Assembly: GCF_001676785.2 (NCBI RefSeq)
Contig: NZ_CP015910.2
Span: 248,001 to 312,000, forward strand
Direction: 5' to 3'
Length of the DNA: 64,000 bases
Source of the DNA: Brachyspira hyodysenteriae ATCC 27164
Lineage (GTDB): Bacteria; Spirochaetota; Brachyspiria; Brachyspirales; Brachyspiraceae
Below, piece after piece: positions 1,848 through 62,711 of this stretch. Numbering within the stretch: position 1 is the stretch's first letter; the number at the start of each line of letters is the position of its first letter. Below the pieces are notes generated by a model, which saw only the letters and a program-made list of their open reading frames with translations, was not told where the DNA came from and searched no databases. The position numbers and the translations under genes were made by a program.

Positions 1848-2076
1848 GACCGCCCAGAATTTTTTTAATTTAAATCTTACTTACCGCACGCATAACAAAA
1901 CTAAAAATATAGAATTATTTGCAATTACAATTTTTGTTATATTTATAGATTAGCTCACCGTGCGTCAAAGAGATTTTCAATTTAATTAACGTTTGGGCGG
2001 GTATGCTTTTTTAATTTAAATGCCAAAATAAATAAATCTGAAATTTCTAATTAAGCTTTAAATTTATAGGGTGGGG
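1848..2076. repeat. Nested-palindrome element A (left outer arm missing)
   Basis: Visible boxes are inner left ACCGCCCA (1849-1856), core left ACCGCACG (1883-1890), core right ACCGTGCGT (1957-1965), inner right TTGGGCGGG (1993-2001) and outer right AGGGTGGGG (2068-2076). The core is 83 bp and the flanking boxes are symmetric about it. The left outer box expected near 1770 is replaced by the repeat at 1673-1789. Together these two repeats fill the 540-bp gap 1613-2154. Confidence 0.85.
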
Positions 2077-2154
2077 TATGTAAATAAAATTTTTATATTA
2101 AAAAACTTGTATTTAATAAATCCCTATTTTATAATATGTTGAGGAGATATAAAT

Positions 2155-2627: not shown

Positions 2628-2678
2628 AATTTGATTTAAATTTTTCAATCCAAGATTTTGTTAATTTATAGCCTATCC

Positions 2679-2761
2679 ACCGCACGCATAATAAAACTAA
2701 AAATACAGAATTATTTGCAATTTAAATTTTTATTATATTTGTAGATTAGCTCACCGTGCGT
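2679..2761. repeat. Nested-palindrome element B (core only)
   Basis: Core boxes ACCGCACG (2679-2686) and ACCGTGCGT (2753-2761) span 83 bp, as in element A. The interior and the following 30 bp match element A almost base for base (for example GAATTATTTGCAATT), much closer than to other copies. The inner right box is degenerate here (AACACTTGTACAAG). It lies 52 bp after the toxin gene. Confidence 0.8.
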
Positions 2762-2967
2762 TAAAGAGATTTCAAATTTAATTAACACTTGTACAAGAAT
2801 ACTATCTGTATCACCAAGCTGAACGGTAAGATTTTTTCTTCCATAATGGTAAATTTAAAAAATATCTTAGTTTATATCTGGCAATAAAAATTAAATATTA
2901 GTTATGCTATAAGTTTTAAATTGATAAACGATCAGCTGATAACTTTAGTTGTCAGATATTTACAAAT

Positions 2968-3023
2968 AAAAAATCGAGTGTCTATCAGCTTTAGCTGATA
3001 GAGATTGTAAAACGAGATTTTTT
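2968..3023 (+). ncRNA. A-tract/hairpin/T-tract structured element, copy H0
   Basis: The outer stem AAAAAATC (2968-2975) pairs with GATTTTTT (3016-3023). It is followed by GAG on the left and preceded by CGA on the right, which allows tandem G-A pairs. Inside is the hairpin TCTATCAGC/GCTGATAGA. The same architecture recurs at 19891, 20000, 20976 and 21082. It could be a terminator, a small RNA or a mobile structured repeat. It lies 145 bp upstream of fabV; the rest of 2762-3167 is AT-rich with only the related hairpin ATCAGCTGAT near 2931-2940. Confidence 0.5.
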
Positions 3024-3167
3024 ATTAATAATAAAAAGTTTATCGCTAGCAATAATAAGAAATTATTATTTCTTTTTAATTGAAAAAAAAACAATTTTAT
3101 TATAAAGTATTACGAAATTAGTTTGAAATATATTTTGAAAATAAAAAATGATAGGAGAATAAACAAT

Positions 3168-8777: not shown

Positions 8778-8812
8778 AACCGTGCTGTTATTAATGCAGC
8801 ATGGTTTTTTAC
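8778..8812 (+). terminator. Terminator after cdr
   Basis: The stem AACCGTGCTG/CAGCATGGTT (8779-8788 with 8798-8807) is followed by a T-run. Confidence 0.85.
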
Positions 8813-8823
8813 TTTATTCTAAT

Positions 8824-9135
8824 TCCCACCCTCCATATTTTTTGATTTATTTTATAATTGTTATATTTCTATTCTTTATTTATTTAATTAGAAAATATAA
8901 TTCCCACCCAAGTTTTTTTATGCGATTATGATGCTATTAACCGCACGCAGAGTAAAGCTATAAATATTAACTAATTTATAATAACATGTTAATTATATAA
9001 AATATTTCGTTCACCGTGCGTTGATAGATTTTTTAAATTTAAATAACACTTGGGCGGGCATGCTTTTTCTTTATACGCATTGAATATATGTAAACTAGAA
9101 ATCTTAGTGGAAACATTGAAACAAAAAGGGCGGGG
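8824..9135. repeat. Nested-palindrome element C (complete, 312 bp)
   Basis: All six boxes are present: CCCACCCT (8824), CCCACCCA (8903), CCGCACG (8941), ACCGTGCGTT (9013-9022), TTGGGCGGG (9050-9058) and GGGCGGGG (9128-9135). The core is 83 bp. The right end continues TATGTAAATAAAATTT, as in elements A and G. It fills most of the 472-bp gap between cdr and rubrerythrin; no ORF is inside. Confidence 0.9.
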
Positions 9136-9234
9136 TATGTAAATAAAATTTTTAATATCCTATTGCAAATAACTCTAATTGTTTATTATATATTATTAAA
9201 ACTTACAATAGGATATTAAATACGATATTGATGA

Positions 9235-14327: not shown

Positions 14328-14414
14328 TCTATTATATTTTTTTATTAATGTTTTCTTTAAATCCAAGTGTTATTTTTATAATGCTTGGATTTTTATTTAT
14401 GGTGATCATCAAAT

Positions 14415-14610
14415 AACGCACGGTAAGCAAAGCCTTAATTATAATATCAATTACAATTACTAATTAATCTAATTTTTATAATTTTACTCATCGTGCGGTA
14501 TGTTAATAATAAATTTAAATAAAGCTTGGGCGGGCTTTATATTTTCAGTATAAACTATAAAGAAATAAAGATAAAAATAACTAATAAAATTAAAAAGTAT
14601 AAAGGGCGGG
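14415..14610. repeat. Nested-palindrome element D (core and right arms)
   Basis: Core left AACGCACGGT (14415-14424), core right ATCGTGCGGT (14490-14499), inner right CTTGGGCGGG (14525-14534), outer right GGGCGGG (14604-14610). The left inner and outer arms are absent, where the hydrolase gene lies. Confidence 0.85.
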
Positions 14611-14644
14611 CATATGTAATTAAATTTTAAAACTTATTTTAACT

Positions 14645-14845
14645 CCCCACCCTCAAGATTTTATAATTTTATTTTGCATTAAAACTTATTTTATATTTTT
14701 TATTTTAATTAGAATTTATTAGCACCCACCCAAGTTTTTTGTAAATTTGTTATGCACTTACCGCACGATTAAATATTTTTTTAATTTATAGAAGTTTTAT
14801 AAAAAGAAAATATATTTATATTATATGATTTGTTTAGCGTGCGTT
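14645..14845. repeat. Nested-palindrome element E (left arms and core)
   Basis: Outer left CCCCACCCT (14645-14653), inner left CACCCACCCA (14723-14732), core left ACCGCACG (14760-14767), core right AGCGTGCGTT (14836-14845). The right arms are absent: the LysR gene begins 5 bp further. With element D it fills the gap 14328-14850. Confidence 0.85.
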
Positions 14846-14850
14846 ATGAA

Positions 14851-16423: not shown

Positions 16424-16434
16424 ATTAAATATAA

Positions 16435-16566
16435 ATCTTCGGGGCTAGGTGAAATTCCATACCGGCGGTAAAGTCCGCGAGCCTTTTTGATGTTCCTTAT
16501 TCAAAAATGGCAGATTTGGTGCGATTCCAAAACCGACAGTTAAAGTCTGGATGGTAGAAGATGAAA
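16435..16566 (+). promoter_or_regulatory. FMN riboswitch (RFN element)
   Basis: The conserved RFN words are present in order: ATCTTCGGGGC, AGGTGAAATTCC, ACCGGCGGTAAAGTCCGCGA, a variable hairpin, GGTGCGATTCC, AACCGACAGTTAAAGTCTGG and ATGGTAGAAGAT. It binds FMN in the nascent RNA. A terminator hairpin at 16595-16630 follows, so FMN probably causes premature termination of the rib operon. Confidence 0.96.
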
Positions 16567-22600: not shown

Positions 22601-22681
22601 TATTAATGATATTTGATGAATAATGTATCATTATAGCAGGAAAATATTTCCTCATTAATATATTCTATAATCAAGTTTATT

Positions 22682-23195
22682 TATATATACTAAAAATTTT
22701 TAAGTTTGTCAAAATTAGTTTTTATATTGCTATTATTTTTGGGGACTAGTCCCCGAACCCCTACTTCTTTTGGTGACCCAAAGAAGCAAAAGGACTGCAT
22801 TTTTGACACAAATCTTGGTTTTACTTCACATTTAAAACAAAACTTAATAATATTTTATACTATTAATAAATAAAAATTACATTTACCAAAAGTAAAAATT
22901 GACAAAGTATAGTTGTTTAGGTATATACTAAGAATTTTTAAGTTTCTCAATTGATCCACTTTATATAAATTTTATCTACTTTTTTGCAGCAACACTCTGC
23001 GGACTTCGTCAAAGTTTTTATCCTTCTGATACGCTTCACGAAAGGCTATATTTTAGATTAAATTTAATGTTTTATCTTACATGTAAAACAAAATTAGTAT
23101 TATTTAGTACTAATTTAATACTTTCAGTTTTTGCAACTTTTTGCTGGGGAAAAGTTGAATAAAAAAATGACAAACTTAAAAATTTTCAGTATATA
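22682..23195. repeat. Composite outward-promoter repeat, two units
   Basis: The left end, read leftwards, is TTGACA-17-TATATA (22682-22712). The right end is TGACA-17-TATATA pointing right (23168-23195). In the middle (22899-22950) a right end and a left end are fused: TTGACA-17-TATATACT, then a reverse -35-like TCTCAA. Inside are copy 2 of the GGGGACTAGTCCCC module (22741-22802), an ACTCTGCGGACTTCGTCAAAG module, and TTTTTGCAACTTT...AAAAGTTG. It fills the gap between the MNT and ankyrin genes; no protein is encoded. Confidence 0.75.
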
Positions 23196-23204
23196 TTAAA
23201 AGTA

Positions 23205-24191
23205 TTAATTATATTTTTCAAGAAGCTCAACTATATCTTCATAATTTTCTGATTTTGCCAAATCAAGTGCAGTATAACCATCTTCATCAGTTATAGAAGT
23301 ATCAGCATTATTTTCTAAAAGTACTTTTGCAGCTTCAAATTGATTAAAACTTGCTGCATACATTAAAGCAGTCATTCCATAATCAGTGGTATAATTAATA
23401 TCAGCACCATTTTCTAATAACATATTGATTATATTAGTGTTTCCTTTATAAGCGGCATTCATTAAAGGAGTAGGCGATATCTCAATATGTTCATTTTTTA
23501 TTTCGCATACTGTATTGGCGTCAGCTCCCTTTTCAAGTAAAAATTTTACCATCTCTTCATTATTGAAAGAAGCAGCATAAACTAAAGCATTAATGCCGTC
23601 ATCATCTTTTGCTTCAATGTCCGCACCTTTTTCAATTAAAAGCTCTGTTATAGCAATATTATGAAGGCTAGCCATAAGAGGAGTAAAGCCTGTAAGTTCA
23701 GCAGGTAAATTGACATCAGCTCCTAAATCTATAAGTTTACGAACAAGTTCTTCATCATACATAGCTTCTGTTAATGGAGTAGAATATCCTAAAGTTAAAT
23801 TAACATCTGCATTATTTTCTAATAAATAATTTATGATATCAGTTTGCTTATATTTTATAGCTTGTATTAAAGGCGTTGACTTAGAATATTCATCTATCTC
23901 TAAGTTATAATTAATATCTAAACTTTTTGATTCAATTAATTTTTTGATTGTTTGAAAATCTCCTGATTCTATAAAAGATACAATTTCTTTATCTGTGTAT
24001 GAATAATATGTTGTTTCTTCTGTTTGATTTGTATTTATTGATGAATTATTTGATTGTTCTGTTTTATTTATATTATTATCTGTACTGTCATCTAAATTTA
24101 TAGTTACTTTATCTGCATTATTATTGTTTGATTCTTTGCTATCACAAGAAAATATAATTATAGAAAGTAAAAAAATTAATAAATATTTCAT
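23205..24191 (-). CDS. Ankyrin-repeat lipoprotein 1
   Basis: 328 residues from the ATG at 24191 (MKYLLIFLLSIIIFSC), with Cys16 lipidated; a start two codons earlier is possible. An Asn/Thr/Ser-rich linker (about 17-65) is followed by roughly eight ankyrin repeats such as STPLIQAIKYKQTDIINYLL and GMTALMYAASFNQFEAAKVL. It should be anchored in a membrane with the repeats binding another protein. It is a close paralogue of the next gene upstream (24633-25961), including promoter and 3' flank. A promoter lies upstream on the minus strand (TTGAAA-16-TATACT, about 24251-24224). Confidence 0.9.
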   Translation of the reverse strand: MKYLLIFLLSIIIFSCDSKESNNNNADKVTINLDDSTDNNINKTEQSNNSSINTNQTEETTYYSYTDKEIVSFIESGDFQTIKKLIESKSLDINYNLEIDEYSKSTPLIQAIKYKQTDIINYLLENNADVNLTLGYSTPLTEAMYDEELVRKLIDLGADVNLPAELTGFTPLMASLHNIAITELLIEKGADIEAKDDDGINALVYAASFNNEEMVKFLLEKGADANTVCEIKNEHIEISPTPLMNAAYKGNTNIINMLLENGADINYTTDYGMTALMYAASFNQFEAAKVLLENNADTSITDEDGYTALDLAKSENYEDIVELLEKYN

Positions 24192-24317
24192 AAACAATAT
24201 ATCCTATAGTCAAGTTTTTTATTAGTATATAATAAAAATGTATTTTTTCAAGTTTTATATTAAATCCCTATAGGGTATATTTTTATTAAAATTCAATCAT
24301 AAAAATTTATTTTAAAA

Positions 24318-24376
24318 CCCCACCCTTTATGTTTATTGTTTTATACTTGAATATTAACTTTATTTGTTTTTCAGTT
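24318..24376. repeat. Left outer arm of a nested-palindrome element (fragment)
   Basis: CCCCACCCTTTATG followed by TTTATTGTTTTATACTTGAA matches element F (26085 onward) almost exactly but stops at 24376, where an outward-promoter repeat begins. It is the truncated product of the ankyrin-region duplication. Confidence 0.75.
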
Positions 24377-24625
24377 TATACTTAAAATTTTTAAGTTTGT
24401 CAATTTTTATGTTGTTCTTTTTCCAGCCGCACGCTACAGTGGCAATACCATACCTACACTTACAGTGGATTTCGTCAGGTACTCCTTTCAGTCGCAGTAC
24501 TTCCTTCGGTCGCAAAAGAAGTGGGGTGTTACGAAGTACGCAGAGCGGCACGTCTGTGTGCCATCACAAATAATAAAATTTAAAAAACTAGAATTGACAA
24601 AATATATTTGTTTAGGTATATATTA
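24377..24625. repeat. Outward-promoter repeat with GC-rich core
   Basis: The left end, read leftwards, is TTGACA-17-TA-rich (24377-24403). The right end is TTGACA (24594-24599), a 17-bp spacer and TATATA, pointing at the 3' end of the second ankyrin gene. The GC-rich core has GCAGTACTTCCTTCGGTCGC, AAAAGAAGTGGGGTGTTACG and AAGTACGCAGAGCG, shared with 61620-61675. Confidence 0.75.
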
Positions 24626-24632
24626 AAAAGTA

Positions 24633-25961
24633 TTAATTATATTTTTCAAGAAGCTTAACTATATCATTATTATATTTCTTATTATCTTTTGATTTTGCCA
24701 TATCAAGTGCAGTCCTACCATCTTTATCAGTTATAGAAGTATCAGCATTATTTTCTAAAAGTATTTTTACTGCTTCAAATTGATTATAACTTGCTGCATA
24801 CATTGAATTTGCTGCATACATTAAAGCAGTCATTCCATAATCATTGGTATAATTAATATCAGCACCATTTTCTAATAACACATTTATTATATTAGTGTTT
24901 CCGTTATTAGCAGCATGCATTAAAGCAGTATCACCATCTTCATCAGTTATAGAAATATCAGCATTATTTTCTAAAAGTATTTTTGCAGCTTCAAATTGAT
25001 TAAAACTTGCTGCATACATTAAAGCAGTCATTCCATAATCATTGGTATAATTAATATCAACACCATTTTCTAATAACGTATTTATTATATTAGTGTTTCC
25101 TTTATAAGCAGCATAAATTAAAGGAGTCATTTCATCAGTGGTATAATTAATATCAGCACCATTTTCCAATAACATATTTATTATATTAGTGTTTCCGTTA
25201 TAAACAGCATTCATTAAAGGAGTAGGCGATATATCAATATGTTCATTTTCTATTTCGCATACTGTATTGGCGTCAGCTCCCTTTTCAAGTAAAAATTTTA
25301 CCATCTCTTCATTTTCATCACTTGAGGCATAAACTAAAGCATTAATGCCATAATCATCTTTAGCTTCAATGTCCGCACCTTTTTCAATTAAAAGCTCTGC
25401 TATAGCAATATTATTATGGCTAGCCATAAGAGGAGTAAATCCTGACTGAGCAGGTAAATTGACATCGGCTCCTAAATCTATAAGTTTACGAACAAGTTCT
25501 TCATCATACATAGCTTCTGTTAATGGAGTAGAATATCCTAAAGTTAAATTAACATCTGCATTATTTTCTAATAAATAATTTATAATATCAGTTTGCTTAT
25601 ATTCTATAGCTTTTATTAAAGGGGTTGACTTGGAATATTCATCTATCTCTAAGTTATAATTAACATCTAAACTTTTTGATTCAATTAATTTTTTGATTGT
25701 TTCCAAATCTCCTGATTCTATAAAAGATACAATTTCTTCATCTGTGTATGAATAATATGTTGTTTCTTCTGTTTCATTTGTATTTATTGATGAATTATTT
25801 GATTTATTATCTTTATCATCTGTATTTGATTGTTCTGTTTTATTTATGTTATCTGTACTATCATCTATGTTTATAGTCGATTTATCTGTATTATTATTTT
25901 GTTCCTTGGTATTGCAAGAAAATACTAGAATAGAAAGAAAAAAAATTAATAAATATTTCAT
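24633..25961 (-). CDS. Ankyrin-repeat lipoprotein 2
   Basis: 442 residues, start at 25961, signal MKYLLIFFLSILVFSC with Cys16 lipidated. After an Asn/Asp/Ser-rich linker there are about eleven ankyrin repeats. Compared with its paralogue it has about three extra, near-identical internal repeats (GNTNIIN-LLENG-DINYT, then YGMTALMYAASFNQFEAAKI), so it has grown by in-frame duplication. A small extra duplication gives MYAANSMYAAS in the last part. The 5' flank is also shared with ankyrin gene 1. Role unknown beyond protein binding at a membrane. Confidence 0.9.
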   Translation of the reverse strand: MKYLLIFFLSILVFSCNTKEQNNNTDKSTINIDDSTDNINKTEQSNTDDKDNKSNNSSINTNETEETTYYSYTDEEIVSFIESGDLETIKKLIESKSLDVNYNLEIDEYSKSTPLIKAIEYKQTDIINYLLENNADVNLTLGYSTPLTEAMYDEELVRKLIDLGADVNLPAQSGFTPLMASHNNIAIAELLIEKGADIEAKDDYGINALVYASSDENEEMVKFLLEKGADANTVCEIENEHIDISPTPLMNAVYNGNTNIINMLLENGADINYTTDEMTPLIYAAYKGNTNIINTLLENGVDINYTNDYGMTALMYAASFNQFEAAKILLENNADISITDEDGDTALMHAANNGNTNIINVLLENGADINYTNDYGMTALMYAANSMYAASYNQFEAVKILLENNADTSITDKDGRTALDMAKSKDNKKYNNDIVKLLEKYN

Positions 25962-26084
25962 AATAATATATCCTATAATTAAGTTTTCATTAGTATATTA
26001 TAAAAATATTTTTTGCAAGTTTTTAATTAAATCCCTGTGGGGTATATTTTTATTAAAATTCAATCTTAAAAATTTATTTTAAAT

Positions 26085-26395
26085 CCCCGCCCTTTATGTT
26101 TATTGTTTTATACTTGAATATTAACTTTATTTGTTTTTTAGTTTAAATCAGAAATTAGAGCACCCGCCCAAGTGTTTATTAAATTTAGAATCTCTTTAAC
26201 GCACGGTAAATCAATTTTATAATATTGTATAATTTGAATTTTAAACAAATCTATATTTTTAGACTCATTCACCGTGCGGTTATGGGGCTATAAGTTTAAA
26301 TAACACTTTGGGTGGGCAGCTAAAATAACTGTTTAAGTTTTTAAAGAAAAAAAATATAGAAATAGGAGAAAAATATAAAAAGGATAGAGGGTGGG
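26085..26395. repeat. Nested-palindrome element F (complete, 311 bp)
   Basis: CCCCGCCCT (26085-26093), CACCCGCCCA (26161-26170), AACGCACGGT (26198-26207), ACCGTGCGGT (26271-26280), TTGGGTGGG (26308-26316), AGGGTGGG (26388-26395). Gaps are symmetric: 67 and about 71 bp outside, 27 and 27 bp inside. The core is 83 bp. The rest of 25962-26503 is the ankyrin promoter region and AT-rich DNA before the DUF5682 gene. Confidence 0.92.
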
Positions 26396-26503
26396 ATTTA
26401 GAATGAAACTTTATAATAATTTATGTATTTAGGTAATATTTGTAATTATTGCATTATGCTCTTTTTATAGTAAAATACTTTTCATTGTTAAGGATTTTTA
26501 ATA

Positions 26504-50809: not shown

Positions 50810-50817
50810 ATTATATT

Positions 50818-51015
50818 ACGCACGCATAGAAGATTATATAAATATAATAAGATTGTACTATAAAATTAATCTCAATTTATAATGAAGTTAATCGTGCGTT
50901 GATAAGCACAAAAAATTTAATTAACATTTAGGGCGGGTGTTAGAATAACAGTTAAAAGTAAAAAAGAAAAATAATACAAAAATTACTTATTATTGTAAAA
51001 AGCCTAGAGGGCGGG
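50818..51015. repeat. Nested-palindrome element G (core and right arms)
   Basis: Core left ACGCACG (50818-50824), core right AATCGTGCGTT (50890-50900), inner right GGGCGGG (50931-50937), outer right AGGGCGGG (51008-51015), followed by AATTGTAAATAAAATT. The left arms are missing because xylB ends there. It occupies most of the gap 50810-51158. Confidence 0.85.
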
Positions 51016-51158
51016 CAATTGTAAATAAAATTCAAAAACTTGATATAAATCTAAAATAATTTTATTAGATTTCAGAATTTATTTATACTTGTCAAAATAT
51101 TTTACAATATATAAATGTATATGTTTATAATTTTATTATAATAGGAGATGATTTTAAT

Positions 51159-51797
51159 ATGAATTTTCAGAGAAAAATACTTTTTATATTAGCATTATTA
51201 ATATTATTTTCTTTTAATCTTTTTGCTAATTTTAAGTTTGGAATAAGTCCAAGACTTGGAGCTGATATAAATATAGCTAAATCCGAAAATTATAGCAGTG
51301 CATTGTTAGATCCAAGATTAGATTTAAATTTTCAAATAGGATACGGATTTAAATTAAATAATATAAATTTATTAAGCGGTATAGATCTTTTATTTGATTT
51401 TGGAATTAATGAACATATGGTATCTGTAATTGACAGTGGTACTTCTTTAATTAATAGAGTAACAGCATTTGGAATATATACAGGAGTAGCTTTAAAATTC
51501 GATTTAACTAAAAATAATCAAAATCTTCTTGTAGGAATATCTGCCGGAGTGCAGTTTAATCCTTTATTAGGTGTGGATTATAAATCAGTTCCTATATCTC
51601 CTTATGTAAGATTATCATTAGAAAGAAAATTCTTTGATACTGAAAAAATAGATTTTATTGCAGGCGTTCATTTGTCTTATGAGAATATGATTTTTAATTC
51701 CGATGATATGAATAATATATTTGCCTATAATAGTGTTAATCAATATCATTCTGTAGGTTTGATGTTTAGCTTTGGATTTTTCTTCGAGAATAGATAA
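51159..51797 (+). CDS. Probable outer-membrane beta-barrel protein 3
   Basis: 212 residues. Signal peptide about 1-24 (LILFSFNLFA). The mature protein has alternating amphipathic strands (FKFGISPRLGADINIA, LNFQIGYGFKLNN, ISAGVQFNPLLGVDY, VGLMFSFGFFF) and ends in aromatic residues followed by ENR. It is similar in size to the barrel pair at 35338-36773 but not a close paralogue. Shine-Dalgarno AGGAGATG. It stands alone between elements G and H. Surface location and function are inferred only. Confidence 0.72.
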   Translation: MNFQRKILFILALLILFSFNLFANFKFGISPRLGADINIAKSENYSSALLDPRLDLNFQIGYGFKLNNINLLSGIDLLFDFGINEHMVSVIDSGTSLINRVTAFGIYTGVALKFDLTKNNQNLLVGISAGVQFNPLLGVDYKSVPISPYVRLSLERKFFDTEKIDFIAGVHLSYENMIFNSDDMNNIFAYNSVNQYHSVGLMFSFGFFFENR

Positions 51798-51956
51798 AAG
51801 TTTTAAACAAGCTTATAACTGATAATTTATTTTATATGTTATTAACTATTTTAATATAAATTTGGCTAAGAATAATGCGTGCTTTTGCAACTTTTACGAA
51901 GTCCTGGAAAAGTTGATATAAAAATAAATAATATAATTTTTTAACTATATTTAAAA

Positions 51957-52153
51957 CCCCGCCCTTTATTCCTTTTTATCTAATTTAAAATTTTAACTTT
52001 CATTATCTTTATAGCTTATTTAGAAATTTTAGCACCCGCCCAAAATTTTATTAGATTTAAGGAATTATTTAACGCACGATAAACTGAATTTTAATTATGA
52101 AGCTGCTTTTAAATATAACTTTAATTATATATAAAAATTCACTTACCGTGCGT
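51957..52153. repeat. Nested-palindrome element H (left arms and core)
   Basis: Outer left CCCCGCCCT (51957-51965), inner left CACCCGCCCA (52033-52042), core left AACGCACG (52071-52078), core right ACCGTGCGT (52145-52153). Right arms are missing where the oppA-like gene ends. The TTTTGCAACTTTTACGAAGT ... AAAAGTTGAT module lies just before it (51892-51918). Confidence 0.87.
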
Positions 52154-52170
52154 CTGGGAAATAAATAAAA

Positions 52171-53914: not shown

Positions 53915-54482
53915 GTATTATCAACTTTTTGCCGCACACTCTGCTAGCTTTACCTATGTCATACCTGAAGTTATTTCTTTAGGTTGAAAAATAACTGGGG
54001 CTGACACTATGTTATAGTACCCACAAATAATATAAATTTAAAATTGTGTTTATTAATTTTTATATTGTTCTTTTTCCCGCCGCATACGCTCTGCAGACTT
54101 CGTCAAAGAACCTTATATCCTCGATAAACTCGGATACGCTTCGCGAAAGTGCAAGTATAAAATTAGTACTAAATCATACTAAAATACTCTTGCATGTAAG
54201 ATAAATTATTAATTTAAGCACACCTTGCCAAATGCACGTAGAGCGAAGGTGGGATTCATCAAATATAGCCTTTCGCCGTAGGCGGGCTGTGCCTGCTTCT
54301 CGCCGTAGGCGTACTTCGTATGTGGCAATACCACAGGCACTTCCTTCGGTCGCAAAAGAAGTGGGGGTTGCCGAAGGCACGCACAGCGGGGGCAAAGCCC
54401 CATATATAAAAACAAAAATTAAATTTATTTTTGACAAAATATAGTTGTTTAGGTATATACTAAAAATTTTAAGTTTATAAAA
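53915..54482. repeat. Mosaic of GC-rich hairpin modules ending in a bidirectional promoter
   Basis: Between oppA and bioA (53770-54559) there is no gene but a string of repeated modules: TATCAACTTTTTGCCGCACA (53919-53938), CGCTCTGCAGACTTCGTCAA, TCGATAAACTCGGATACGCT, TTCGCCGTAGGCGGGCTGTG, CTTCCTTCGGTCGCAAAAGA, and finally TTGACA-17-TATATACT fused to a leftward half-site (54431-54482). Related words occur at 22.9-23.2, 24.4-24.6, 60.15-60.37 and 61.4-61.74 kb. The GC content is far above the surroundings. Frames through it are not convincing genes. Confidence 0.75.
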
Positions 54483-54559
54483 TAAAGTTTATACTGTAAT
54501 GAATTTACTATATGCTTTTTTACTCATAAATAATACTTTATTATTATTTATAAAATTAA

Positions 54560-60399: not shown

Positions 60400-61356
60400 A
60401 TGAATAAACCAAAAATAGTAGTGCTTGACGGATTTATATTGAACCCGGGTGATATATCTTGGGGAGAAATAGAAAGCATATCGGATTTAACTGTTTATGA
60501 TAGAACCGATTATAATAAAGTGTATGAAGCAGCTAAAGATGCTTGGGGAATATTAAACAGTAAAGTTGTTATAGATAGAAAATTAATGCAGTCGCTTCCA
60601 AATTTAAAATATATAGGAATGCTTGCTACAGGATATAATGTTGTGGATATTGAAGCTGCCAAAGAATTAGGAATTACTGTTACTAATGTAAGAGGATACG
60701 GCCCTCAGTCTGTGGCTCAGCTTGTAATGGCTTTTGTATTATCTCTTTCTTTTAGGATAGTTGAACATAATAATCAGGTTCATAATGGCGATTGGATAAA
60801 ATGCAAAGATTATTCTTTTAGTTCTTATCCTTTAATGGAGATAGAAAATAAAACTATGGGTATATTTGGATTTGGAGATATAGGAAAAGAAGTTGCAAAA
60901 ATGTCTGAGGCAATGGGAATGAAAGTTTTAGTTTATTCAAGAAGTAAAAAAGAAAATGTTGAAAATGCTTCTAGTATAGATGAACTTTTTGAGAGATCCG
61001 ATTTTTTATCTCTTAATGCTCCTTTAAATAAAGAAACAGAAAATATTGTTAATATAGATTTGCTTTCAAAGATGAAGAAAACAGCATTTTTAATTAATAC
61101 TTCAAGGGGCGGAGTGATAGTTGAAAAAGATTTGGCTTATGCTTTGAATAATGATATTATAGCAGGTGCCGCTTTAGATGTGCTTTCAAAAGAGCCTCCT
61201 ACAGAAGATAATCCTTTGCTTACTGCTAAGAATTGTTATATAACTCCGCATTTTGCAGGCAATACCTTAGAGGCTAGAACTAGACTTATGCATAAAGTTT
61301 ATGAGAATATAAAAGCATTTTTGGAAGGAAACCCTATAAATGTTTTAACTAAATAA
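60400..61356 (+). CDS. D-2-hydroxyacid dehydrogenase (NAD-dependent)
   Basis: 318 residues. NAD-binding domain GIFGFGDIGKEVAKMSEAMG; catalytic Arg in LINTSRGGVIVEKDLA, Glu in the DVLSKEPPTEDNPLL segment, and His in YITPHFAGNT. The N-terminal domain has YIGMLATGYNVVDIEAAKE and the region GPQSVAQLVMAF. It reduces a 2-keto acid (hydroxypyruvate or glyoxylate are possible) to the D-hydroxyacid. Promoter from a dispersed repeat at 60340. Shine-Dalgarno AAAGGAA. Substrate uncertain. Confidence 0.92.
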   Translation: MNKPKIVVLDGFILNPGDISWGEIESISDLTVYDRTDYNKVYEAAKDAWGILNSKVVIDRKLMQSLPNLKYIGMLATGYNVVDIEAAKELGITVTNVRGYGPQSVAQLVMAFVLSLSFRIVEHNNQVHNGDWIKCKDYSFSSYPLMEIENKTMGIFGFGDIGKEVAKMSEAMGMKVLVYSRSKKENVENASSIDELFERSDFLSLNAPLNKETENIVNIDLLSKMKKTAFLINTSRGGVIVEKDLAYALNNDIIAGAALDVLSKEPPTEDNPLLTAKNCYITPHFAGNTLEARTRLMHKVYENIKAFLEGNPINVLTK

Positions 61357-61363
61357 TATTTAT

Positions 61364-61740
61364 TATATATTAAAAATTTTTAAGTTTGTAAATTTTTTGT
61401 TGTTCTTTTTCCCGCCGCAAAAAGAACCAAAAAGTGCAAGGATAAAATTAGTACTAAATGATACTAAAATTTTCTAAATGTAAGGTAATTCATTAATTTA
61501 AGATAAAATATAGCCTTTAGCGAAGCGTATCCGAGCCTGTCGAGAGGATATAGCTTCTCGCCTGCCGTAGGTACACTTCGTGAGGCGGCAATACTATACC
61601 TAAAGGTACTCTTTTCAGTCGCAGTACTTCCTTCGGACGCAAAAGAAGTGTGGGTGTTACGAAGTACGCAGAGCGGTGTGGCTAGTCTCCACAAATAATA
61701 AAATAATTTTTTACAAAATATAGTTGTTTAGGTATATATT
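61364..61740. repeat. Outward-promoter repeat with GC-rich core (377 bp)
   Basis: Left end read leftwards TTTACA-17-TATATA (61392-61364); right end TTACAA with TATAGTTGTTTAGGTATATA (61711-61740) pointing right. The core has TTGTTGTTCTTTTTCCCGCC, AGCGAAGCGTATCCGAGCCT, CAGTACTTCCTTCGGACGCA and TTACGAAGTACGCAGAGCG. The left promoter points antisense into the dehydrogenase gene, the right one antisense into the aminotransferase-like gene. No gene inside. Confidence 0.78.
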
Positions 61741-62711
61741 ATGTCTTTTAACTCATTCAAAAACATGTTATTTATTTTATGAGTTGATACTGTAACCCTT
61801 AGAAAGTTAGCTAGTATGTTTTCTTTATCATATTTTTTTACGAATATATTTCTTTTTATAAGTTCTTCGTATATATAATCAGATGTTTTATTTACATGTT
61901 TTATTAAAAGGAAATTCGCTCTTGAAGGCACTACTATAAAACCTTCTTTGCTTAAGAGTGTATCCAATCTTTCTCTCTCTAAAACTATATCGAATATATT
62001 ATTATACGAAGTTTTTTCATCTCTCAAAGCGGCAAGCGTTATAGTTTCGGATATTTTATTTATTCCATATTTCTGTCTTAATTTTGACATGTTTTCTATA
62101 TTTTCTGAATTGGAGATTATAAAGTTAATATTAAGTCCTGATAAAGAATGAGAATGTGCAATGGATCTTATTATAATTAAATTTTTATATTCATTGATTA
62201 ATTTTATAGCACTTTCTCCTGCAAAGTTTATATATGATTCATCTATGACATATATTCCTTCATAATGTTTTAGAAACTCTTCTATTTCTTTTATATTGAT
62301 GAACATTCCTGTTTCAGCATTAGGATTGCTTGCTATTATTATAGAATTTTTATTTTTTATATGTTTTTTTAGACAAATATTATAATCTTCTCCAGCTTCA
62401 ATCACATCATAATGCATTTTATAATAGAGAAAAATTTTAGTATATAAATCTCTGTAAGGCTCTTGAATAAATATTTTGTATTTATCATAAGAGTTGATAA
62501 TGCAAGCAAAAGCTTCATACATACCATTAACAGAAATTATATTATTATTTTCTACATTAAGATATTTAGACATTTCTTCATCTAATTGCTGAGGGCTATA
62601 CTCAGGAAAGAATATTAGAGAATCAATATCAAATTTTTCAAGCTCTTTAATAATATTTTTGGACGGCTTGTATGGATTTTCATTTTTGTCTAAAAAAATT
62701 TCTTTGTTCAT
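61728..62711 (-). CDS. HisC-like class I/II aminotransferase without the PLP lysine
   Basis: 327 residues. Most of the histidinol-phosphate/threonine-phosphate aminotransferase motifs are present: DKNENPYKPSKN, SNPNAETGMF, YVIDESYINF and the C-terminal Arg in NFLRVTVST. But the segment that holds the PLP lysine (usually R-T-x-S-K-A-x-G-L-x-G-L-R-x-G) reads RSIAHSHSLSGLNIN here: the lysine position is His186 and the phosphate-binding Arg position is Asn194. It is therefore probably not a normal transaminase. No frameshift is seen. The 3' end overlaps the outward-promoter repeat. Confidence 0.85.
   Translation of the reverse strand: MNKEIFLDKNENPYKPSKNIIKELEKFDIDSLIFFPEYSPQQLDEEMSKYLNVENNNIISVNGMYEAFACIINSYDKYKIFIQEPYRDLYTKIFLYYKMHYDVIEAGEDYNICLKKHIKNKNSIIIASNPNAETGMFINIKEIEEFLKHYEGIYVIDESYINFAGESAIKLINEYKNLIIIRSIAHSHSLSGLNINFIISNSENIENMSKLRQKYGINKISETITLAALRDEKTSYNNIFDIVLERERLDTLLSKEGFIVVPSRANFLLIKHVNKTSDYIYEELIKRNIFVKKYDKENILANFLRVTVSTHKINNMFLNELKDIIYT

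Follow-up and report, generated by a model that had tools for sequence, protein, structure and literature searches.

The window analysed here is the whole 64,000-bp stretch at positions 248001-312000 of the 3.04-Mb contig of Brachyspira hyodysenteriae ATCC 27164 (genome GC content 28%), and it carries two complete copies of a palindromic intergenic element together with shortened and rearranged ones. The first complete copy (8805..9158, minus strand, limits set by recurrent BLAST ends, boxes at 8825, 8903, 8941, 9015, 9052 and 9128) lies between convergent oxidoreductase and rubrerythrin genes and has an orthologous copy in at least seven other species, while the second (26060..26415, plus strand, outer-to-outer boxes 26086-26395, edges approximate) lies upstream of a DUF5682 gene within a divergent gene pair; both have the order arm-core-arm, referred to as layout 1. 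At 1848..2105 a core is followed by the right inner and outer boxes, the left inner box being degenerate and the left outer box missing, and at 2649..2800, downstream of a small gene pair (a DUF6290 protein and an 86-aa ORF), the copy is shortened to a core with degenerate inner boxes. What had been described as two partial copies at 14415 and 14645 is one unit with the order core-arm-arm-core, or layout 2 (14414..14849; core at 14415, inner box at 14528, outer box at 14604, about 36 bp, outer box at 14646, inner box at 14725, core at 14760-14846), which is situated between convergent genes and begins at the same edge as matches elsewhere in the genus. The partial copy expected at 24318 is present as a single left-arm fragment (24300..24370, plus strand) that has only the outer box at 24319 and is a copy of 26070-26137 made by local duplication (24243-24389 versus 26010-26156). 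Two one-armed copies on the plus strand complete the set: in 50813..51045 (core, right inner box 50931, outer box 51009) the core starts 9 bp past the stop codon of an FGGY kinase gene, and in 51940..52160 (left outer box 51958, inner box 52035, core 52071-52154; the orientation margin is weak, 2 bits) the core adjoins the stop codon of an SBP_bac_5 gene. These two look like a layout-2 unit with one gene (51159-51797) in between. All nine copies named by the original prediction lie at the positions it had given.

The window contains further repeats and one known RNA element. A local direct duplication (23205-25961) comprises two adjacent reading frames of 330 and 442 aa, the second encoding an ankyrin-repeat protein; a portion of the element's left arm was copied with it (24318 versus 26085). 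Another, unrelated short palindromic intergenic repeat at 2883-3085 has several matches of 81-90% identity in four other Brachyspira genomes, and TTGACAAAATATAGTTGTTTAGGTATATACTA and CTTCCTTCGGTCGCAAAAGAAGTGGGG mark one more dispersed repeat, which occurs in both orientations at 22660-24660, 54030-54500 and 61350-61780. In an Rfam scan of the window only an FMN riboswitch (RF00050, 114 bits, 16431-16566) and tRNA were detected, and the copies of the element gave no match.

One copy measures about 350 bp and has a direction: its left arm, core and right arm carry six GC-rich boxes as inverted pairs (outer AAAGGGYGGG, inner CTTGGGYGGG, core CGTGCG). In complete copies the outer CCCRCCC comes first, then after about 77 bp the inner CCCRCCCAAG, after about 37 bp more the core box CGCACG and after about 67 bp CGTGCG, and the mirror image follows. 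Measured start to start on 135 half-copies of the ATCC 27164 genome, the offset between the two core boxes is 72-76 bp in all but one case (mode 73-74), which gives a core of about 81-86 bp instead of the invariable 83 bp originally proposed; the core-inner spacing is mostly 35-39 bp (mode 36-37) and the inner-outer spacing mostly 74-79 bp (mode 77-78). The spacing is tight even across copies that are otherwise very different in sequence. The element extends 20-35 bp past the outer boxes and has sharp borders, as BLAST matches end recurrently at 8805 and about 9158 and likewise at 14414. Hence the initial description of nested inverted repeats of about 310 bp stands for the inverted box pairs but fails for the size and for the equivalence of the two halves: the two strands score a median of 42 bits apart against an oriented profile, and once copies are oriented, CCCGCCC predominates in the left boxes and GGGTGGG in the right ones, around a core of the form CGCACGGT...TGCGTGCG. 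Left and right arm are inverted repeats of each other, though imperfect ones, and their boxes pair, so that terminal inverted repeats are present. At the middle position of paired inner boxes, G-T occurs in 49 cases, A-C in 17, A-T in eight and G-C in none, a pattern whose simplest cause would be inherited left/right polarity combined with AT-biased drift; the A-C class may stem from cores that are inverted relative to their arms.

Layout 2 is recurrent, and in 14 of 15 such pairs the core centres lie 330-346 bp apart and in 13 of 15 the copies are co-oriented, the element forming head-to-tail arrays with a period of about 340 bp. Relatives have two to three layout-2 units in tandem. At one locus (L176) a relative has two cores and right arms where ATCC 27164 has one, and at another (L208) only a left arm and core are found at a site where ATCC 27164 has layout 2; comparison with relatives therefore shows that units are gained or lost beside an existing unit. 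The longest case is a seven-core tandem array in genome G010 (L381, 8034-9652), flanked by genes for an acyl-transferase and a STAS-domain protein, with six of its cores in a 234-bp unit of left arm plus core. This array is a recent local expansion. A centromere-like function was considered for the arrays of genomes G010, G004 and G009 and was rejected, with no partition gene among the scanned neighbours of the G010 and G004 arrays.

The element constitutes a Brachyspira-specific family of dispersed intergenic DNA that is larger than the nine copies of the window. The exact core pattern CGCACG-N62-74-CGTGCG has 95 matches in the ATCC 27164 genome and 27-145 matches per genome in 22 other Brachyspira species, with none for the reversed control pattern in any of them, in agreement with the expectation that the box spacing is kept outside the window. 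A half-element model (core plus one arm up to the inner box, built on sequence without structure from 11 training half-copies) finds at least 150 matches in the ATCC 27164 genome, the weakest among the matches listed having E=1.2e-10. It recovers the window copies at E=1e-28 to 1e-20, but since these were its training sequences, the independent evidence is the genome-wide result. Two Brachyspira genomes (G001 and G003) have no match to the core pattern, and the two pattern matches of G019 were dismissed because both appear to be coding. Outside the genus, no match at E<=1e-6 was obtained among the 247 spirochaete genomes sampled, 221 of which are not Brachyspira. When the arm pattern was run against GTDB genomes, the matches listed comprised Brachyspira and four single matches in other taxa that we take as chance. 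A phage or plasmid origin was likewise rejected, as the element has no match in phages or plasmids; one pattern match to a viral contig exists. In the literature on Brachyspira we found no paper on such repeats, and a word search of four Brachyspira genome papers (PMC2650404, PMC3163572, PMC2897892, PMC3532143) retrieved no mention of such a family.

An indication of function comes from the way orthologous copies diverge. At three sites, in 22 pairwise comparisons with relatives retrieved through the similarity of their genes instead of their boxes, the G/C letters of the boxes differ at 31 of 775 positions (4.0%) and those of the spacers of the same elements at 324 of 808 (40.1%). Box letters are kept about ten times better than spacer G/C between species at 88-93% overall identity. 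Over a broader set of 17 comparisons, some of them selected by pattern so that the set is biased, the figures are 3.4% versus 42%. The comparisons share ancestry, and box definition relied on perfect matches in the ATCC 27164 copy, which may lower the box figure somewhat but not tenfold; for indel rates in the spacers, alignments of such AT-rich DNA are unreliable. Without the middle letter, differences amount to 2.9% in outer, 1.3% in inner and 1.7% in core boxes, while the middle letter of GGGYGGG differs at 17.5-20.5% and is therefore free. Judged from these substitution counts, purifying selection evidently acts on all six boxes, apart from the free middle letter of GGGYGGG, and the spacers drift, as the original prediction had anticipated when it argued for selection on the boxes beyond recent copying. 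Some individual boxes decay (for example at L280, L284, L315 and L316), so single copies are dispensable.

Comparison of gene borders across the genus shows that the element inserted into or was lost from them on the timescale of species, and also that it multiplies locally in head-to-tail arrays. At 385662-386022, an element of 350-366 bp lies exactly between two convergent stop codons in ATCC 27164 and six relatives; this site (385836) is also occupied, with further rearrangement, in G008 and G005 and is filled in at least eight species, whereas in G002, G017, G018, G020 and G021 it is empty, the same two genes ending 5-15 bp apart. G014 has a 573-bp variant there that begins with a core. 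At site 2705199 the element is absent in one relative (L169), which instead has a terminator-like hairpin after the stop codon. Such features are typical of a MITE: the element is short (about 350 bp), non-coding and dispersed in many copies (95 exact cores), and has terminal inverted repeats as well as occupied and empty sites in relatives. The suggestion of a non-autonomous transposon is supported in part by the empty sites and sharp ends, but not by a target-site duplication (shared flank words 7.57 versus 7.48 +- 0.19 for swapped flanks, with exact ends uncertain in AT-rich DNA) or by a transposase or other mobilising enzyme among the 30 neighbouring proteins scanned. One could suppose that the family is nothing but a MITE, its boxes being sites at which the transposase of an extinct or rare autonomous element binds, and its copies being without host function. 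Dispersed intergenic copies, polar inverted-repeat arms, sharp ends and an occupied/empty site would all be expected, and boxes that outlast spacers between copies would be as well. This is nevertheless rather unlikely given the tenfold better preservation of box letters in orthologous copies, since a dead copy should lose its GC-rich boxes first under AT-biased mutation, and the missing duplication signal and the lack of a transposase in the neighbouring genes scanned count against it too.

With respect to genes, 45 of 100 cores lie between convergent genes, 46 between tandem and nine between divergent ones, against a background of 41 convergent pairs among 298 in the sampled DNA (mechanical ORF calls); copies favour convergent gene pairs. 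The edges of armless cores are typically 4-40 bp from a stop codon and rarely less than 60 bp from a start codon, and several complete copies begin directly past terminator-like hairpins. Relative to tandem transcription the orientation shows no bias (23 of 46), at odds with the proposal of a strand-specific 3'-end element. With about one tenth of the copies at divergent and almost half at tandem genes, a role at convergent ends cannot explain them all. On the scale of the chromosome, three of the four genomes tested have their copies concentrated around the replication origin: in ATCC 27164 their mean position is 34 kb and GC skew changes sign near the contig start, in G004 the mean is 1.61 Mb, near the place expected from synteny, and in G009 it is 1.69 Mb, near a noisy GC-skew switch, while the copies of G010 have no chromosomal clustering. 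The GC-skew evidence comes from sampled stretches, in which intergenic space does not account for the clustering; Brachyspira origins have previously been placed by GC skew rather than by dnaA (PMC3163572). A chromosome-organising role is compatible with this distribution.

The preference for convergent genes together with the lack of orientation bias could also be accommodated by a bidirectional terminator or roadblock, in which C-rich boxes serve as Rho loading sites or a box-bound protein halts polymerase. Transcripts entering a layout-1 copy from either side meet CCCRCCC boxes first, and at site 2705199 the copy stands in place of the terminator-like hairpin of the element-free relative. 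However, transcripts entering layout 2 meet the G-rich strand first, some copies lie beyond complete intrinsic terminators, and a spacing fixed within 1-2 bp as well as the specific flanking letters (CTT, AAA) exceed what a Rho site needs, which makes this role unlikely.

Another possibility is that the copies are a platform for homologous recombination, direct repeats allowing gene modules between them to be gained or lost. Neighbours 480-2500 bp apart are co-oriented in 11 of 14 cases, and no such agreement is seen at larger distances; counted together with layout-2 pairs, neighbours less than 2.5 kb apart are co-oriented in 24 of 29. One to two extra units differ between species, and at a locus near 501 kb (L053, G000:C1:500458-501490) a small gene pair that by eye resembles hicBA accompanies an extra left arm; in three relatives the element stands there without these genes. 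Even so, most copies stand alone between ordinary host genes, and recombination alone would leave the box-specific conservation unexplained, so that we regard this as quite improbable. Gene cassettes between copies were rejected as a general feature, the genes between close copies being ordinary host genes, and are occasional at best.

As to the form in which the element acts, the 26085 copy folds as RNA far better than its shuffles on both strands (z=-6.8 and -5.3), as any inverted repeat would. Among 43 oriented, non-redundant copies there is no compensatory pairing, as own arms fit each other no better than swapped arms, and the outer-inner spacers of own arms fit slightly worse. A selected RNA or cruciform hairpin is unlikely: compensation between own arms is missing, the box letters are anti-complementary and there is no strand preference. 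The lack of arm compensation and of strand bias argues for double-stranded DNA as the working form. The absence of G-C and the frequency of A-C in the middle of paired inner boxes, together with the uncompensated arms and the lack of an Rfam match, also set the element apart from structured RNAs. An RNA element whose transcribed arms form a long hairpin for 3'-end processing, stability or termination is thus highly improbable in spite of the strong fold on both strands and the many armless core edges near stop codons, since orientation ignores transcription, own arm pairs fold no better than swapped ones, paired inner boxes never show G-C in the middle and some complete copies lie beyond terminator-like hairpins. 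Of the two uses once envisaged for the boxes, the fold is not upheld, and protein binding appears the more likely.

The reading that we favour, as probable though by no means secure, is that of an old insertion family of MITE/BIME-like kind, with boxes that are under selection as putative binding sites of one or more host proteins. The element would have originated as a small non-autonomous insertion element that spread long ago, and one or several DNA-binding proteins of the host would contact its boxes sequence-specifically; they may read the three box types at their fixed spacing and assemble a spaced nucleoprotein complex on each copy. If such a complex forms on each copy, bound copies would act as boundaries that keep convergent transcription units apart or give structure to the chromosome near the origin. 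Any particular role of the bound sites is less probable than the protein-site reading as a whole. Only tentatively do we propose the full picture of genus-specific nucleoprotein sites, derived from an insertion element and selected at dozens to more than 100 fixed loci, with a putative protein that uses the origin-proximal and convergent-gene sites as transcription or chromosome boundaries. In a genome of 28% GC, purifying selection confined to GC-rich boxes is a rare indication, open to direct test, that a repeat family has a function. Were a protein to bind the sites, they would constitute a spirochaete system of a new kind for chromosome structuring or transcription boundaries, and their exact box grammar would be a ready probe for finding that protein. 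Moreover, the elements could serve as strain-typing markers and could explain some gene gain and loss.

Several known systems share part of this design. The REP/BIME sequences of enterobacteria are dispersed intergenic palindromic units, often at the 3' ends of genes, that are bound by host proteins, alternate as units of 35-40 bp in arrays and have a genus-specific sequence. The Brachyspira element is likewise a dispersed, intergenic, genus-specific palindromic unit that occurs singly or in arrays, and the purifying selection confined to its boxes is an indirect sign of host-protein binding. It differs in its unit of about 350 bp with three kinds of boxes at fixed long spacing and in its arrays, which are head-to-tail direct repeats of about 340 bp instead of alternating units of 35-40 bp; the two would not be expected to be related in sequence. 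Integron attC sites have R'/R'' boxes (GTTRRRY / RYYYAAC) and lie in cassette arrays with an integrase; by eye, the Brachyspira element differs in conserving CGCACG/CGTGCG and GGGYGGG and in having ordinary host genes as neighbours. Pneumococcal BOX elements have a modular build. BOX, RUP and SPRITE of pneumococcus are small interspersed repeats with many copies (PMC3049150), and the Brachyspira element resembles them in being small, interspersed and multi-copy but not in size and modules. A further comparison is with the first MITE to be described in bacteria, the Correia repeat enclosed elements of Neisseria, which have more than 100 intergenic, non-coding copies per genome, inverted-repeat ends, empty sites and an internal IHF site, make promoters and are cut as RNA by RNase III (PMC10969869). 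Copy number, intergenic place, inverted-repeat ends, lack of coding capacity and empty sites are shared by the Brachyspira element, whereas it shows no strand preference or pairing constraint, conserves its boxes between orthologous copies and prefers convergent gene pairs. With its long, three-box, direction-coded and box-selected design, it is a distinct variant among small interspersed repeats such as REP/BIME, Correia and BOX.
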